A stretch of 32,719 bases of DNA, from positions 1-32,719 of IMG/VR virus record IMGVR_UViG_3300020731_000055. The stretch is one strand, 5' to 3'. Under the pieces are notes generated by a model. The model saw nothing but the letters and a program-made list of their open reading frames with translations, made no database searches and had not been told where the DNA came from. Shown here piece by piece: positions 23,782 to 31,720 of the stretch. Origin of the DNA: a virus. Each line of letters starts with the position of its first letter. Position 1 is the stretch's first letter. A program made the position numbers and the translations under genes.

Positions 23782-24663
23782 ATGTCAGCATTCTCTATTA
23801 ATACATGGTTAAAAAAAGGATACTCAGAGGAACAAGCAAGATACCAAATTGCTATTAGAAGACCAAATAATGTATTATATTATATCAACAAAGGATTTAC
23901 AGAAGAAGAAGCGAAGGAAAAGATAAGAGAAAGGCAATCTTTAGGCGGTTTAAAAAGAGCTAATATGACCATAAAAGAAAAAAGAACCTTAAGTCCAAGG
24001 TGTGTAGAATTTTATACAGCGAAAGGTTTCTCAGAGGAAGAAGCGAAAGAGTTAGTATCTGAGTTTCAGTCAGTTTTTAGTAAAGAAAAATGTATAGAAA
24101 AGTATGGTAACATCGTAGGTCTTGAGATTTTCAATGATAGGCAAGAAAAGTGGCAAGCTACTCTAAAATCTAAACCAGAAGAAGTGATCAAAGATATCAA
24201 CCGTAGAAAAAATCGATGGATCCATCTTACCGAAGAAGAATCAGAACTACTTAAAAAACAAATAGCAGAAAAAATAAAAGAAACCGTATCCAGTAGATCA
24301 GTTGAAGATAGTCGCAGAATTGGACAGACAATAAGAGCGGGACAAGTAACAACCGGAAGAGCTACTCCTGAAGAAATGGTAGATGATTTTCTACGTTATA
24401 AACAAAAAGTATGGGCAGAGACTAAAAGGAACGACCTAACTATCTTAGAAAACTACGACCGTCGCAGCAAACTTGACTATCATCTGGATCACATGTATAG
24501 TATATTTGAAGGGTTTAGAAACAATGTTGATCCTTACATAATAGGACACATTGAGAACTTAAGGATGCTTCCGTATAAAGAAAACTTATCAAAGTTCAAT
24601 AAGTGTTCAATAACACTCAACGAACTTATGTTACGAATTGAGGATATAGATGCTAGTAATTAA
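23782..24663 (+). CDS. HNH-type homing endonuclease-like protein
   Basis: 293 residues, starting after AACAGGAGACACAG. The N-terminal part carries three copies of a short helical motif: GYSEEQARYQI (residue 13), GFTEEEAKEKI (38) and GFSEEEAKELV (82). The middle is a charged helical linker. The C-terminal region LDYHLDHMYSIFEGF, then HIENLRMLPYKENLSKFNK (residues 231-274) fits a beta-beta-alpha-metal HNH nuclease, with the D-H pair at 236-237, Asn 259 and the final N-x-x-K near 268-271. It sits between gp47 and gp46, normally adjacent, and its last 14 bases overlap the gp46 start. Codon use looks more A-rich (many AAA, AGA, GAA) than in its neighbours, consistent with a mobile gene. The family call is from motifs; cleavage specificity is unknown. 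Confidence 0.75.
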   Translation: MSAFSINTWLKKGYSEEQARYQIAIRRPNNVLYYINKGFTEEEAKEKIRERQSLGGLKRANMTIKEKRTLSPRCVEFYTAKGFSEEEAKELVSEFQSVFSKEKCIEKYGNIVGLEIFNDRQEKWQATLKSKPEEVIKDINRRKNRWIHLTEEESELLKKQIAEKIKETVSSRSVEDSRRIGQTIRAGQVTTGRATPEEMVDDFLRYKQKVWAETKRNDLTILENYDRRSKLDYHLDHMYSIFEGFRNNVDPYIIGHIENLRMLPYKENLSKFNKCSITLNELMLRIEDIDASN

Positions 24664-26456: not shown

Positions 26457-26491
26457 TATTGGTAAATACAATTATCAATATAGGATTTTTT

Positions 26492-27325
26492 ATGGTAAAC
26501 GATTTTGGTCACTGGATTACCACATGTGAGATAGACATCAATTCTTGGTTTGGTTTTATATACAGAATAACTAACTTAGAAAATAACATGATGTATATTG
26601 GACGAAAGCAATTCCATTCAACAAATCGTAAAAAGATTGCAAACAGGATTAACAGGAAAAAAATAGTTAAAGAATCTGACTGGAAGACATACACATCTAG
26701 TTCATTGTCTGTTAACCAACTGATTGATAAACTTGGTAAAGACAAGTTTAAATTTGAAATTATTGAATTATGCAGAACCAAAGCTGAACTTGTCTATAGA
26801 GAAGTAGAGATACAATGGGAAGAAAAAGTTTTATCTGCTACATTACCTAATGGGGAGAGAAAATATTACAATGGAAACATTGGAGCTATAAAATTTAGAC
26901 TAGACAAGCACTCTGACAAAACAAAAGAAAAAATGTCAGCGAAAGCACAAGGCAATAAGAATGCTTCCGGTAGTATTCGCTCTATTTCTACTAGAAAAAA
27001 AATGAGTGAAGCCAAAAGTGGCGTTCCAAAAACAGAAGAACATAGACAAAAACTTAGTGAAGTGAATCTGTATAAAGAGTTGTCTGACGAAACAAAAGAA
27101 AAAATAGGAATCGCCCATCGAGGAAGAGAAATCAAAAAAGAAACAAGAGAAAAAATGTCAAAAAAAGCAAAAGAGCGAAAATACATCCCGGCAATCAGTT
27201 GTATTGTTGATGGGATCGAATATGATAGCTTGGCGGCTGCTTCTATAGCACTTGACATCTCAAAGGGAGTTCTAAAAAGGCGAATCCTGTCACCGAATTA
27301 CAGTAATTATTCGTTCAAATCTTGA
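26492..27325 (+). CDS. GIY-YIG homing endonuclease with NUMOD repeats
   Basis: 277 residues from MVNDFGHWITTCEI, with AGGA about ten bases upstream. An upstream TTG is possible but less likely. Residues 20-40 (FGFIYRITNLENNMMYIGRK) hold the GIY...YIG pair as FIY...YIG. A downstream REVEIQWEEKVL supplies a likely catalytic Glu. Then come at least three NUMOD3-type DNA-binding motifs (SDKTKEKMSAKAQGN, TEEHRQKLSEVN, SDETKEKIGIAHRGR), and a C-terminal NUMOD1-like helix-turn-helix (EYDSLAAASIALDISKGVLK). This is the layout of I-TevI/Seg-type freestanding endonucleases of T4-like phages. It sits directly downstream of gp46, so the recombination gene pair is flanked by two mobile genes. Codon use is A-rich like the HNH gene. 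Confidence 0.82.
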   Translation: MVNDFGHWITTCEIDINSWFGFIYRITNLENNMMYIGRKQFHSTNRKKIANRINRKKIVKESDWKTYTSSSLSVNQLIDKLGKDKFKFEIIELCRTKAELVYREVEIQWEEKVLSATLPNGERKYYNGNIGAIKFRLDKHSDKTKEKMSAKAQGNKNASGSIRSISTRKKMSEAKSGVPKTEEHRQKLSEVNLYKELSDETKEKIGIAHRGREIKKETREKMSKKAKERKYIPAISCIVDGIEYDSLAAASIALDISKGVLKRRILSPNYSNYSFKS

Positions 27326-27360: not shown

Positions 27361-27757
27361 TATATTAAATTACCTAGTGGCATACGCAAGTATTATAATG
27401 GCAACATATCGGCTGTGAAATTTTATCCCCCGGCTCCATTGGCAGAAGAATTGGCTCATCAGGCTATATAGTCCCACATCAGTTAAAAATAGAAGGTCTC
27501 ACGCCCCGATAATCGTGAAAGTGGACAACGTAAGGCCATACGATAGGCTAAATGATTGCGGCTCTGAGAAAAAGCAACCGCAGCGACGATGATGTTTGAT
27601 TAAAGAGGCATTATTCATCGTACCGTTGGATTAATCAGCTGGATTAATGGGGTACCGGCCAACCGCCCCTCTGTTTAAAGACAGTTTCCTTCTTTATAAT
27701 GATGAAGAACTCAACAAAAGTTCCTTTGTCACTGGTCCCGTAAAGGGATCAGTATGA
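27361..27757 (+). pseudogene. Remnants of a second endonuclease gene
   Basis: Positions 27361-27471 encode, without a start codon, a fragment LPSGIRKYYNGNISAVKF ending at a TAG. It matches LPNGERKYYNGNIGAIKF of the intact upstream GIY-YIG gene at 14 of 18 residues, although the DNA has diverged. In another frame, 27647-27757 encodes a 36-residue ORF containing LLYNDEELNKSS and PVKGS. This loosely resembles the YNNG-x-x-NK...KGR repeat found in phage homing endonucleases. The first fragment is a convincing remnant; the second is tentative. The bases between them code for nothing I recognise. Confidence 0.5.
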
Positions 27758-27862
27758 CTTAAATCTAACAAAAAGTTATTAAGAAGTTAAAGTAAAAGAC
27801 CGTAGGAAAATGTTGTTGAACGAAGTGAAAACAACTGGTCACGCCAGTGACCACATAGTGTG
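27472..27862 (+). other. Hairpin-rich intergenic region between convergent transcripts
   Basis: Several stems are visible: TGCGG/CCGCA (27557-27582); ACTGGTCCC/GGGATCAGT with a GTAAA loop (27731-27753, nine pairs including one G-U); and two abutting hairpins GTTGTT/AACAAC (27812-27835) and TGGTCAC/GTGACCA (27836-27853). The last two end ten bases from the minus-strand stop at 27863, so they may terminate gp26/gp51 mRNA or both convergent transcripts, though none has a clean T run. Plus-strand linkers are A-rich, as in structured RNAs. No tRNA or known ribozyme core is recognised. Confidence 0.45.
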
Positions 27863-28093
27863 TTAGAAGAATGGTATTCCTGACTTCTGTGTTACTTCCA
27901 TATTACTCTTGATAATAGTATTAATAATTTCTCGTTCTTGGAATCCCAATTGGAATGCTTCGTCGTAAGTAAGACCGCCACGCATATGCCAACACATGCG
28001 AAGTGCTTCTTCTTTTAGCCCCTTACACTGCTTTTCGTAACTTTCGACTAATGCGATAATTCCGTCACGATCAAGCGTTAAGAGGCGTCCCCG
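27863..28093 (-). CDS. gp51: gp51-like extension, probably read by -1 frameshift from gp26
   Basis: The frame from 28093 to the TAA at 27863-27865 encodes 76 residues, ending EREIINTIIKSNMEVTQKSG then IPFF, with MCWHMRGGLTYDEAFQLGF before it. The MRGG-x-x-YDEA...EREII...K-x-PFF pattern is one I associate with gp51-type proteins next to gp26 in marine T4-like phages. The frame opens after an in-frame TGA, and there is no ATG, GTG or TTG before the conserved part. The first ATG lies 32 codons in and would discard LDRDGIIALVESYEKQC. The frame is exactly -1 to gp26 after a T TTT TTC heptamer, so the likely product is gp26 residues 1-280 plus these 76 (356 in total). A truncated 44-residue product from the internal ATG is the alternative. 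Confidence 0.72.
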   Translation of the reverse strand, partial: RGRLLTLDRDGIIALVESYEKQCKGLKEEALRMCWHMRGGLTYDEAFQLGFQEREIINTIIKSNMEVTQKSGIPFF

Positions 28094-28932
28094 AAAAAAC
28101 GAGTATAATCAAACTCCACTGCGATTGGATATTGTGTACTGCATTCTTCGCATACAACATTAGGCTTTGGTAATTCCATATTTTTAGCAAACATTTCAAA
28201 TCTATCTCTAATAACACGAATAAACTTGTTATCTGCATTGTCATAGAATTCTTTAAGATGATCAAAATTACTTACTTGAGTGCCATCTTCTGTTTCGATA
28301 TATTCAGTTCCAGCTGCGATCATTTCGATATTGATCGTAACTAATCTCTGCATATGTTCATTAAACTTCGATAACTTTTCTTCTTTGTTCATTTCCTCAT
28401 TGTTTGCAATTTCCATTAAACGATTTTCTTCAAACTGAGTCATGTTAATCTTATTAGCTTCGAAATAACTCTGAGGCTTTAGTTTTATCTTTAATCCATT
28501 CATATCAACTGTTGCATTATAATTAGGTGCTCTAATCTGATCTAATACCGCACTCAAATCTAACTGATGATTGTTTTCATGTTTGCAGGATTCATTTGGA
28601 CAAATAGTATCAATGTCCATCATCTGCCCGTAACTGGCAATTCTAATAGCAATAAGTGTTGCATCAACATCAATACTTGGCATCTTCCAAGCATCCTTCA
28701 TTTGTGGACAACAGCTTTGAATAATAGAAACCACGCTTTCTCCGTTTAACAACGCATCTGGAGTTCTAATAGTAATTTCATCTCGTGTAGTCATTGGATA
28801 TACAGCAATTTGTCCATTTAATGGTAAATCAAGAGATCCCAAAGGCCAGTAATTGCCGCCGCTAGGTAAAGTTAGGTAGATAGATGGTTGACGAAAATGT
28901 TTTGCTAATGGATTAGTTGATTGATTCTGCAT
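28078..28932 (-). CDS. gp26: Baseplate hub / tail assembly protein gp26
   Basis: 284 residues. The N-terminal part LTLPSGGNYWPLGSLDLP, then YPMTTRDEITIRTPDALLNG is the hallmark of the T4 gp26 family (PSGG...PMTT-x-DE). Two cysteine pairs, C111-x4-C116 and C261-x2-C264, may form a zinc site. The C-terminus reads VEFDYTRFFGDAS, with the FF encoded by the slippery TTT TTC. It is the only gene group on the minus strand in this part and diverges from the tape measure. This position, together with a -1 frameshifted longer form, matches the layout of tail assembly chaperones (lambda G/GT) that load the tape measure. That functional reading is inference. The start follows TAGGATAG. Confidence 0.88.
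   Translation of the reverse strand: MQNQSTNPLAKHFRQPSIYLTLPSGGNYWPLGSLDLPLNGQIAVYPMTTRDEITIRTPDALLNGESVVSIIQSCCPQMKDAWKMPSIDVDATLIAIRIASYGQMMDIDTICPNESCKHENNHQLDLSAVLDQIRAPNYNATVDMNGLKIKLKPQSYFEANKINMTQFEENRLMEIANNEEMNKEEKLSKFNEHMQRLVTINIEMIAAGTEYIETEDGTQVSNFDHLKEFYDNADNKFIRVIRDRFEMFAKNMELPKPNVVCEECSTQYPIAVEFDYTRFFGDAS
28093..28099 (-). promoter_or_regulatory. -1 frameshift slippery heptamer in gp26
   Basis: The minus strand reads CGT TTT TTC GGG in the gp26 frame, so the heptamer T TTT TTC has the X XXY YYZ form. It lies 12 bases before the gp26 stop. Slipping back one base continues with CGG GGA CGC into the gp51-like frame. No clear stimulatory stem was found by eye downstream. Confidence 0.7.
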
Positions 28933-28999: not shown

Positions 29000-31720
29000 A
29001 TGGCTGACATTAATGTTCAAATTCTAGACTTAATGAAAAAACAACAAGAGACGCTTGAAAGAATAGAAGCAAGTTTGTCTGGCGGTGCAGCAGGTGCTAA
29101 TAACACTGGCAGAATTAATCTTCAAGAAAAAGATGTTAAAAAATTAACTGAAAGAATTTCAGAACTTGCTAAACAAGTAGGGGAAGAAGTTAATGCCGAG
29201 AAGCTTCTTCTCAAGCAAGTTGAGCAACAGCGTTTAGCAATATTGCAATCTAATAGAACTCTTAAAGAGCAGAAAGAAGCTTTAGATGCACTTAATACTA
29301 GTTTAGAAAAAACAATTGATGAAACTGAAGATTTAACTGAAGTACAAAAAGCATCTAGTAAAGCAATTATAGAATCAACTAAAGCAACTGCTGCAAAAAA
29401 AATAGCTGATATTGAAGGTAAAGAAGCAGTTGATAAGTTTAACAAAGGTATAAGTCAAGTACAAAATACTTTTGCTCCGTTATCAAAAGCATTTGGCAGT
29501 ATTATAAGCTCTTATCAGTCTGGCGGTAGTCAAATTGGATTAGCGTCTGGTATAATGCAAGCCGAGCTAGGATTAGCTAGTTCTAGTGCTACTAGTGCAG
29601 GTGGCAGCTTAATGTCAGCGGGCGCCGCTGCTGCTCAATCAGGAACTAAGCTTGGTAAATTTGGTGGTATTGCTTTAACAGCAGCAGGTGGACTAAGTTT
29701 ATTTGCTGGCAAGATGGGAGAAGTAGCACAAAAGGTGCTACCTGTATTAACAACTGAACTTAACAAATATATAAAAAGCTTCCAATCTATGTCAACGTCA
29801 GGAGCATTGTTTACTGATGGCATTACTGGTATGGCTAATGCTGGTAAAGATTTAGGATTAACATTAGAGCAAACTTCAGAATTTGCTAAAAGAAATGGCG
29901 AATCTGCTGCATTAATGGGATTAGGCGTCACTGGCGCAATGAAAGAACTGGGTAAAGTAAGTAAAGTAATTAAAGATTCTGGAGTTCAAAATCAATTATT
30001 AAACTTAGGATTTACAATTGAAGAACAAGCTGACTTAATAGCTGAAACTTCTTCAACTATGAAAAGATTTGGAGCTAATGTAAGTGATAAGGAAGTAGCA
30101 GCTCAAACAAAATCTTATGCAGAAAATTTGAGAACTATTGCTGCTATTACTGGCGAAGATGCTAAGAAAAAAGTAGCTCAAGTAAAAGCAGAAAATGATT
30201 ATCTTGCATTTACTCAAGCAAAAGCTAAAATGAGTCCAAAACAGCAAGCACAAATTGATGCTGCAATGGCTACTATGACTGCACAGGAAAGAAAAAACTT
30301 TCAAGATAGAATTGCATTTAACGGTCAAGTAGTTAATAAAGAAGGATTAATGTATGAAAGTATGATTGATGGCACTCGAGAGAAAGGTCTTCGCCAACTT
30401 GAATTACTCGAGCAAGGAAACTTAACTGCTCAATCTAACGCTGATTTAAACAAAGAATTTGGAAAAAGAATAAGTGAAAGTGCCCTTAATGCAGATGCTC
30501 TTGGAAAAGGTGCTATAGTTATAGGCGGTGCATTAACAGGAGTTGCTACAGCAGCACAAGATGCTATTAAACAACAACAAATATATACCGGTGCAGCAGT
30601 TGATGCTGCTAAAACTAATATTGCAGGACAAGAAAATACTCAAGACGACGTAACTAAATCGATGAATAAAGTTATTATAGCTAATCAAGAAGCTGCATTA
30701 GCTATACAAAATGCTATCTTAAACAGTGGTGTTATGACACTTTTTGCTGATGAAGTTACTAAAGCTACTAAAGCATTAACTGGATTAATTAATAAATTTG
30801 GCGGCGGCGAAGGCGGTGGAGGCGGTGGTGGTTGGATGGGCGCCCTTACCACTGGATTAACTGCTTTAGATTTAGGATTGCAAGGGTTAAATTTATTTAA
30901 AGGTGGCGGTAGTAAAGGCGGTGGTGGTCCACATGGTCCAGAACCACACGGCGGTGGGCCTAAACCTAAGGGAAGATTAAGTAGATTCTTTGGTGGTGCA
31001 GTTAATATGGGTCGCGAAGCTATATCTGCAGGTGCAGGTATAGTGGGTTCACTTAGAGAAAAAGCCGGCGGCGTTGCTGCTGGTTTAGCAGGTGCAGGCG
31101 GAGTAATCAGTGAGAAAGTCGGCGGTGCTGTAGGCGGCGCTGCTAATGCTGCTAAAGGTGTATTTGGTGGTGCCGAAGCTAAAGCTGCTGAAAAATTAGC
31201 TGGAAAAGAAGCTGCTGAAATAGGTGCTAAAGCACTTGGAAAAACTATACTTAAGAAAATTCCAGGTGTTAGTATTATTGCAGGACTTGGGTTTGGATTA
31301 CAAAGAGCATTGTCTGGCGATTTCTTAGGTGCTGCAGGTGAAGTAGCAAGTGGGGTAGCTTCAACATTCCCTGGTGTTGGAACTGCTGCTAGTATTGCAA
31401 TTGATGCTGGATTAGCAGCAAGAGATGCAGGATTAATTGGCGGAGGTAATGCTGTACCAGCTACTCCAGCTGAGCCAGGTGGTGCAGGAACACCACAAGC
31501 ATTAGATACTAGTGATGCTGATAAAGCTAAGGCAGCAGCAGTTGCAGCCGCAGAAGCTGAAAAAACTAAACCTGTTACTACAGAAGCTGTAAAAACTGCA
31601 AATGCATCTGATCAGTTAATGGAAATTATGTCAAAATTAAACAATTCACTTGATGAATTAAACGATCATATGAGTCGTGTAGCAGTCAATACTAAGTTGA
31701 CATATCAGGCACTGGGGTAA
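29000..31720 (+). CDS. Probable tape measure protein (gp29 role)
   Basis: 906 residues. Residues 1-140 are strongly coiled-coil (MADINVQILDLMKKQQETLE onward, rich in Lys/Glu/Leu). Hydrophobic Gly/Ala stretches follow around residues 195-245, and a helical Gln/Lys/Glu-rich middle section. A Gly-rich linker (GGGEGGGGGGGWMG) lies near 600-613. A second Gly/Ala-rich region contains KKIPGVSIIAGLGFGLQRAL and ASGVASTFPGVGTAASIAID (about 750-810), and it ends in a short coiled coil. Length, helix content, hydrophobic segments and position beside gp26 and the portal fit a tape measure that sets tail length and helps DNA passage. T4 gp29 is shorter (590). At 0.15 nm per residue a fully helical chain would span about 135 nm, an upper bound on tail length. 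Confidence 0.68.
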   Translation: MADINVQILDLMKKQQETLERIEASLSGGAAGANNTGRINLQEKDVKKLTERISELAKQVGEEVNAEKLLLKQVEQQRLAILQSNRTLKEQKEALDALNTSLEKTIDETEDLTEVQKASSKAIIESTKATAAKKIADIEGKEAVDKFNKGISQVQNTFAPLSKAFGSIISSYQSGGSQIGLASGIMQAELGLASSSATSAGGSLMSAGAAAAQSGTKLGKFGGIALTAAGGLSLFAGKMGEVAQKVLPVLTTELNKYIKSFQSMSTSGALFTDGITGMANAGKDLGLTLEQTSEFAKRNGESAALMGLGVTGAMKELGKVSKVIKDSGVQNQLLNLGFTIEEQADLIAETSSTMKRFGANVSDKEVAAQTKSYAENLRTIAAITGEDAKKKVAQVKAENDYLAFTQAKAKMSPKQQAQIDAAMATMTAQERKNFQDRIAFNGQVVNKEGLMYESMIDGTREKGLRQLELLEQGNLTAQSNADLNKEFGKRISESALNADALGKGAIVIGGALTGVATAAQDAIKQQQIYTGAAVDAAKTNIAGQENTQDDVTKSMNKVIIANQEAALAIQNAILNSGVMTLFADEVTKATKALTGLINKFGGGEGGGGGGGWMGALTTGLTALDLGLQGLNLFKGGGSKGGGGPHGPEPHGGGPKPKGRLSRFFGGAVNMGREAISAGAGIVGSLREKAGGVAAGLAGAGGVISEKVGGAVGGAANAAKGVFGGAEAKAAEKLAGKEAAEIGAKALGKTILKKIPGVSIIAGLGFGLQRALSGDFLGAAGEVASGVASTFPGVGTAASIAIDAGLAARDAGLIGGGNAVPATPAEPGGAGTPQALDTSDADKAKAAAVAAAEAEKTKPVTTEAVKTANASDQLMEIMSKLNNSLDELNDHMSRVAVNTKLTYQALG

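Follow-up and report, generated by a model that had tools for sequence, protein, structure and literature searches.

A probable programmed −1 frameshift and a putative tail assembly chaperone pair at the gp26 locus of a RaK2-like jumbo phage

Introduction

In phage lambda, the slippery sequence is GGGAAAG. For T4-like phages, the abstract of Vladimirov, Gautam and Davidson (Virology 2022;566:9-15) reportedly describes frameshifting as conserved in several groups, and the chaperone genes of that study are said to be gp26 and gp51, to which the paralogy of the two T4 proteins seen here also points. The lambda proteins gpG and gpGT bind the tape measure protein, gpGT recruits the tube protein, and both are absent from the virion (PMC5009743). 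Chaperones of this type were described in a 2016 review as conserved in long-tailed phages 'except T4' (PMC5009743). In the available parts of two papers, Vladimirov, Gautam and Davidson 2022 is cited for poly-T −1 signals in the TAC-N genes of T4-like phages (PMC12846349) and, in the PRFect paper, for the statement that some T4-like phages carry one short and one long gene instead (PMC10885494), which is the situation in T4. The former also reports that phage Adele (Vandenendeviridae/Andersonviridae) uses a −1 shift at a conserved T-rich GTTTTT, its extension having been misannotated as a separate gene (PMC12846349, in part). On the accessible text of these sources, a frameshifted tail chaperone is already described for T4-like phages in general, which answers the question of novelty raised in a preliminary description of the locus studied here.

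Results

A gp26-like gene is followed by an open −1 frame

The window, the whole stretch of DNA analysed, is a virus record of 32,719 bases. Judged from its best relatives (Phosso, Atu_ph07, PA5oct, PBECO4, RaK2 and CBB), it appears to be a fragment of a RaK2-like jumbo T4-like phage. The features considered below are:

28932–28078, minus strand: gp26-like short form (TAC-N), 284 aa, ATG start, two CxxC-type pairs
28099–28093, minus strand: slippery heptamer T TTT TTC, in the gp26 frame and the X.XXY.YYZ register
28099–27863, minus strand: −1 extension (gp51-like, TAC-C), 78 residues from FF plus stop, without a start codon of its own
28086–28018, minus strand: predicted frameshift-stimulating RNA stem, 5' arm 28086–28073 and 3' arm 28033–28018
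29000–31720, plus strand: tape-measure candidate, 906 aa, divergent from gp26, with 67 nt between the two starts

The 3' end of gp26 reads CGT TTT TTC GGG GAC GCC TCT TAA, in which TTT TTC are the heptamer codons, exactly 12 bases (28092–28081) separate the heptamer from the stop, and the TAA occupies 28080–28078 of the minus strand. The −1 frame, read from the heptamer as FFRGRLLTLDRDGIIALVESYEKQCKGLKEEALRMCWHMRGG...GIPFF, stays open for 71 codons beyond gp26 and ends at a stop at 27865–27863, so that the long form would have 356 residues. The locus combines a zero-frame heptamer of the X XXY YYZ type with an overlapping −1 ORF. Coordinates, register and lengths all agree with the preliminary description, which had placed the heptamer 12 bases ahead of the gp26 stop and the gp51-like frame exactly −1 to gp26, with forms of 284 and 356 residues.

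The gp26-like protein matched PF12322 (Pfam T4_baseplate; 2.4e-13, above the curated cut-off) and PHROG 150, 'baseplate hub' (4.9e-22). AF2 models were made separately for gp26 and for the extension, from window and viral-contig sequences; the best BFVD matches of the gp26 model (pLDDT 86) were T4-like baseplate hub proteins. By its profile matches, the N-terminal domain is homologous to T4 gp26/gp51 (PF12322). Neither sequence search nor fold search found a solved structure for the family, and no solved tail chaperone was among the gp26 fold-search matches. Foldseek also matched the gp26 model to longer proteins (about 430–670 aa) of other jumbo phages, namely Erwinia phage Special G, Ralstonia phiRSL1 and Klebsiella Eowyn; judging from the models, these may be undescribed gp26-like chaperones.

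The extension is under selection as protein

No ATG, GTG or TTG occurs in the first ~25 codons of the extension past the gp26 stop, and the first ATG lies within the conserved part; this codon scan agrees with the earlier observation that no such codon precedes that part. Between the window and L003, the extension had a pN/pS of 0.17 when read in the −1 frame, against values of 2.4 and 3.1 for the two remaining frames, and 34 of the 51 differences fell at third codon positions. This pattern points to purifying selection acting on the extension as a protein in the −1 frame only. Its AF2 model was all-helical (pLDDT 83), and the fold search with it gave no match. Aligned by hhalign to the C-terminus of cyanophage/T4 gp51, the extension of this lineage gave a weak match (P about 3e-4 to 4e-4, probability 34–38%). 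Cyanophage-type extensions matched PHROG 634, which represents the gp51 C-terminus; profile comparison gave no such match for the window's extension. In this lineage, homology between the extension and the C-terminus of gp51 is suggestive. In public records (L004, L007, L008, L010, L012–L015) the extension is annotated as a separate short hypothetical gene or omitted (RaK2, PA5oct), and several of these are probably misannotations.

Heptamer and register are conserved among relatives

Viral contigs were scanned with single-protein queries. TTTTTTC in the gp26 frame and the −1 extension are kept together throughout the window's clade, in 46 of 46 loci with 34 distinct extensions. Measured from the first base of the heptamer through the stop codon, the distance to the gp26 end is 13–22 bases in these loci. 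Past that stop the −1 frame stays open for 215–227 nt, four contigs ending sooner. Of the unique cyanophage-type contigs, 54 out of 55 keep this arrangement, as do 26 out of 28 loci from diverse T4-like phages. The cyanophage exception, L138, lacks the heptamer and carries an early stop, which may be an assembly error. The preliminary description had proposed comparing related gp26-gp51 junctions, and both heptamer and −1 register proved to be conserved.

The FF of the junction is encoded NNT TTT TTY in 26 diverse phages (of the 28 T4-like loci), and a few relatives have T7. Given each gene's own codon usage, the joint chance of this synonymous choice is about 1e-17, an optimistic value that ignores relatedness; related sequences are not independent, so combined p-values overstate the evidence. 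By itself TTTTTTC is unremarkable in the window (17 copies, 13.0 expected). Only one place in the window combines an ORF of at least 60 codons with an in-frame heptamer in its last 60 nt and a −1 extension that is also 60 codons or longer; in 60 shuffled windows the combination never occurred with T6Y and occurred twice with any heptamer. Clade conservation, the synonymous-codon constraint and the shuffled windows together led us to reject a chance origin of the junction.

A gp51-like extension in the −1 frame is also present in Kuttervirus (Ackermannviridae) and in K448-type phages, but their junctions have no XXXYYYZ heptamer: ATT TTC ATT TAA in Salmonella phage Se_EM3 (L026, 3200–3420) and CTT TTC AAG TAA in Vibrio phage K448 (L027, 3040–3260). 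These phages may use another shift site or re-initiation.

A covarying RNA stem lies downstream of the heptamer

The 85 bases after the heptamer fold at −25.1 kcal/mol (z −3.5 against dinucleotide shuffles), and the window's stem begins after a spacer of 6 nt. Against synonymous-codon shuffles, which keep protein and codon use, the stem again had z −3.5 (0 of 200), and the mean z in 27 clade loci was −3.1. An uninterrupted helix of 7–15 bp is present in all 27, its 5' arm beginning 3–6 nt past the heptamer; by synonymous shuffles the helix had a p of 0.05 or less in 26 of them, the uninterrupted part of the window's stem alone giving p 0.07. The two arms change jointly among relatives, as in GGCUUUUGAC/GUCAAAAGCC, GGCUCUUGAC/GUCAAGAGCC, GCCUCUUAAC/GUUAAGGGGC and GGAUCUUAAC/GUUAAGAUCC. 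Across 26 sequences, two-sided changes were found in 6 of 10 pairs, with 26 compensatory cells where 8 were expected, a number that none of 500 shuffles reached; the signal was lost when the partner arm was slid. A −1 frameshift site is expected to have a structure ~5–9 nt downstream; the window's stem is such a structure, its stimulatory effect being predicted from sequence, and it probably promotes the slip.

The stem is also present in Phosso and Atu_ph07. In cyanophage-type contigs a different, compact hairpin, which has compensatory changes of its own, occupies +14 to +39 at a nearly equal spacing. In the enterobacterial RaK2-like phages (RaK2, GAP32, CBB, BF, Munch) the heptamer is kept and no significant downstream stem was found. 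No conserved upstream Shine-Dalgarno stimulator was apparent, GGAG being present in few loci of the compared set.

A divergent neighbour is the likely tape measure gene

In all 29 loci checked, a large, fast-evolving divergent ORF starts 30–155 nt upstream of gp26; where not cut by a contig end, it has ~700 to more than 980 codons. By BLASTP, the candidate resembled the tape measure protein of Cr30 weakly (1e-4), through a low-complexity region. This neighbour is likely the tape measure, against which counts the assignment of the Atu_ph07 tape measure to gp701, which does not adjoin gp26 (PMC6102473). In Caulobacter phage Cr30, the annotated tape measure lies on the strand of gp26, one gene downstream. 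The adjacency of gp26 to a tape-measure candidate, noted earlier, holds, with the qualification that the candidate is divergently transcribed; the lambda-type order, in which the gene shares an operon with the tape measure gene and lies directly upstream of it, is not found here.

By gene numbering, the gp26 neighbour is found in the virion proteomes of relatives. In CBB it is CBB_251, with 29 peptides, and the available part of Table 4 goes from CBB_247 to CBB_251 (PMC5259590). For phAPEC6, the accessible part of the list has gp231c and then gp238 as the next listed product (PMC7247149). The PA5oct record carries an ESI-MS/MS tag on the neighbour and none on gp26. That gp26 and the extension are unlisted in relatives' virion proteomes is weak negative evidence, as it depends on gene numbering and on parts of tables.

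Other features around the locus

Just past the extension stop, on the minus strand, an inverted repeat (TGGTCACTGGCGTGACCA, 27838–27859) is followed by a T-rich stretch and is likely the terminator of the gp26 transcript. Further on, ~400 bases (27460–27860) are without a plausible gene, and between the extension end and a GIY-YIG-like homing endonuclease ORF (26459–27325) a truncated second copy of part of that ORF is found at 27375–27440 (KLPSGIRKYYNGNISAVKFY compared with LPNGERKYYNGNIGAIKF). A second endonuclease-like ORF (23782–24663) lies between gp47-like and gp46-like recombination genes. Rfam gave no match anywhere in the window.

T4 gp26 and gp51 are paralogues

T4 gp26 and gp51 matched each other by BLASTP (2e-6), and both matched PF12322. 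T4 gp51 also covers the extension, matching PHROG 150 to position 280 of 282, plus PHROG 634. This paralogy, together with the span of gp51, indicates that T4 gp26 corresponds to the short form and T4 gp51 to the long form. In T4, the two forms are made from two oppositely oriented genes and no frameshift, whereas the window has one frameshifted locus. The preliminary description had held that relatives with a separate gp51 would refute it; such an arrangement was found solely in T4, and since T4 gp51 is a full-length gp26 duplicate plus the extension, the claim is left intact for the present lineage.

Discussion

The sequence comparisons show the heptamer, the register, coding selection and a conserved stem. 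Because heptamer, −1 register and extension coding are all conserved and the downstream stem covaries, programmed −1 frameshifting is by far the best explanation of the locus, as had been proposed for the joining of gp26 to the extension. Architecture, conservation and coding selection point to short and long isoforms arising by a frameshift near the 3' end of gp26, and we regard it as very probable that gp26 and the extension form a programmed, frameshifted tail assembly chaperone pair.

In most public records gp26 and the extension are instead two genes, with ribosomes re-initiating at the gp26 stop, in coupled fashion, to translate the second. An ATG or TTG does lie near this stop in some lineages, and a short gene is annotated there in PBECO4, XbC2, BF and Phosso. 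However, no start codon precedes the conserved part in the window, L003, L032, L045, L046, L056, L065 or L074, the position of the start varies where the heptamer is invariant, and the synonymous positions of the heptamer are constrained. We consider the two-gene arrangement highly improbable and, as the extension has no start codon there, reject a separate gene for the window. A long form could also come from slippage of the polymerase rather than of the ribosome, as realignment is possible on T runs and a T7 run occurs in a few relatives. Yet the codon position is fixed to X.XXY.YYZ, the run length is nearly constant, and a stem with compensatory changes sits at the spacing of ribosomal frameshift sites, so that transcriptional slippage on the T6 run has a very slim chance of being the source. 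Six T is short for efficient transcriptional slippage.

The historical baseplate hub name, and genetic studies that support a place for T4 gp26 in the hub (reviewed in PMC3004832), would suit a structural hub protein whose frameshifted form is a minor structural variant rather than a chaperone. In the same T4 review, however, both gp26 and gp51 are classed as chaperones of hub assembly, and gp51 is placed outside the particle (PMC3004832), and the available parts of the jumbo-phage virion proteomes list the neighbour of gp26 and leave gp26 unlisted (PMC5259590, PMC7247149). A purely structural role is unlikely.

For the frameshifted chaperone pair, we infer the slippage, its rate and the chaperone role as follows. 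In some ribosomes near the end of the gp26 gene, two tRNA-Phe would be held on U UUU UUC; the ribosome would slip back one base and both tRNAs would re-pair with UUU. The gp26 stop would be bypassed and a 76-residue helical domain added, giving a minor 356-residue long form (TAC-NC). The stem, which begins 6 nt past the heptamer, is a probable pause site for the ribosome and probably determines the ratio of short to long form. By analogy with lambda G and GT, the short form (TAC-N) would coat the tape measure protein, the extra domain of the long form would recruit the tail-tube protein, and both would depart before the virion is complete.

The comparison with lambda, already drawn in the preliminary description, fits as an analogy. 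Lambda shifts by −1 close to where its short form ends, makes a minor amount of a long form and has this locus linked to the tape measure gene (PMC5009743), all of which the window would share; the two differ in slippery sequence and in the conserved downstream stem and divergent tape-measure candidate of the window, and no sequence homology between them was shown. The T4-like chaperones of Vladimirov 2022, as far as the available text describes them, are likened to the window by an equivalent locus with short and long forms; beyond them, the window has the −1 arrangement of a jumbo lineage, a stem whose arms covary and a tape-measure candidate that is transcribed divergently. Adele differs in phage family and motif, and the accessible part of PMC12846349 does not mention a conserved RNA stem. 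The additions made here are thus the RaK2-like jumbo lineage, the group-wide rule and the stem; neither the RaK2-like arrangement nor the covarying stem turned up in the searchable literature, which is itself incomplete.

It seems reasonably likely that these loci descend from one ancestral U UUU UUC site, with the spacing of the stimulator nearly fixed and the stimulator itself rebuilt by lineage, and that T4 escaped through duplication into gp26 (short) and gp51 (long). In cyanophages the rebuilt stimulator would be a compact hairpin of 26 nt; in Phosso/Atu_ph07 and the window's clade it would be a long stem that closes about 50 nt.

Our analysis supports extension of the G/GT rule to RaK2-like jumbo phages. 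Reading the locus as frameshifted explains why many records seem to lack gp51 or misannotate it as a short gene, and a specific stimulator supported by covariation is now open to frameshifting studies. It also offers a simple history for T4 gp26 and gp51, long treated as unrelated hub proteins.
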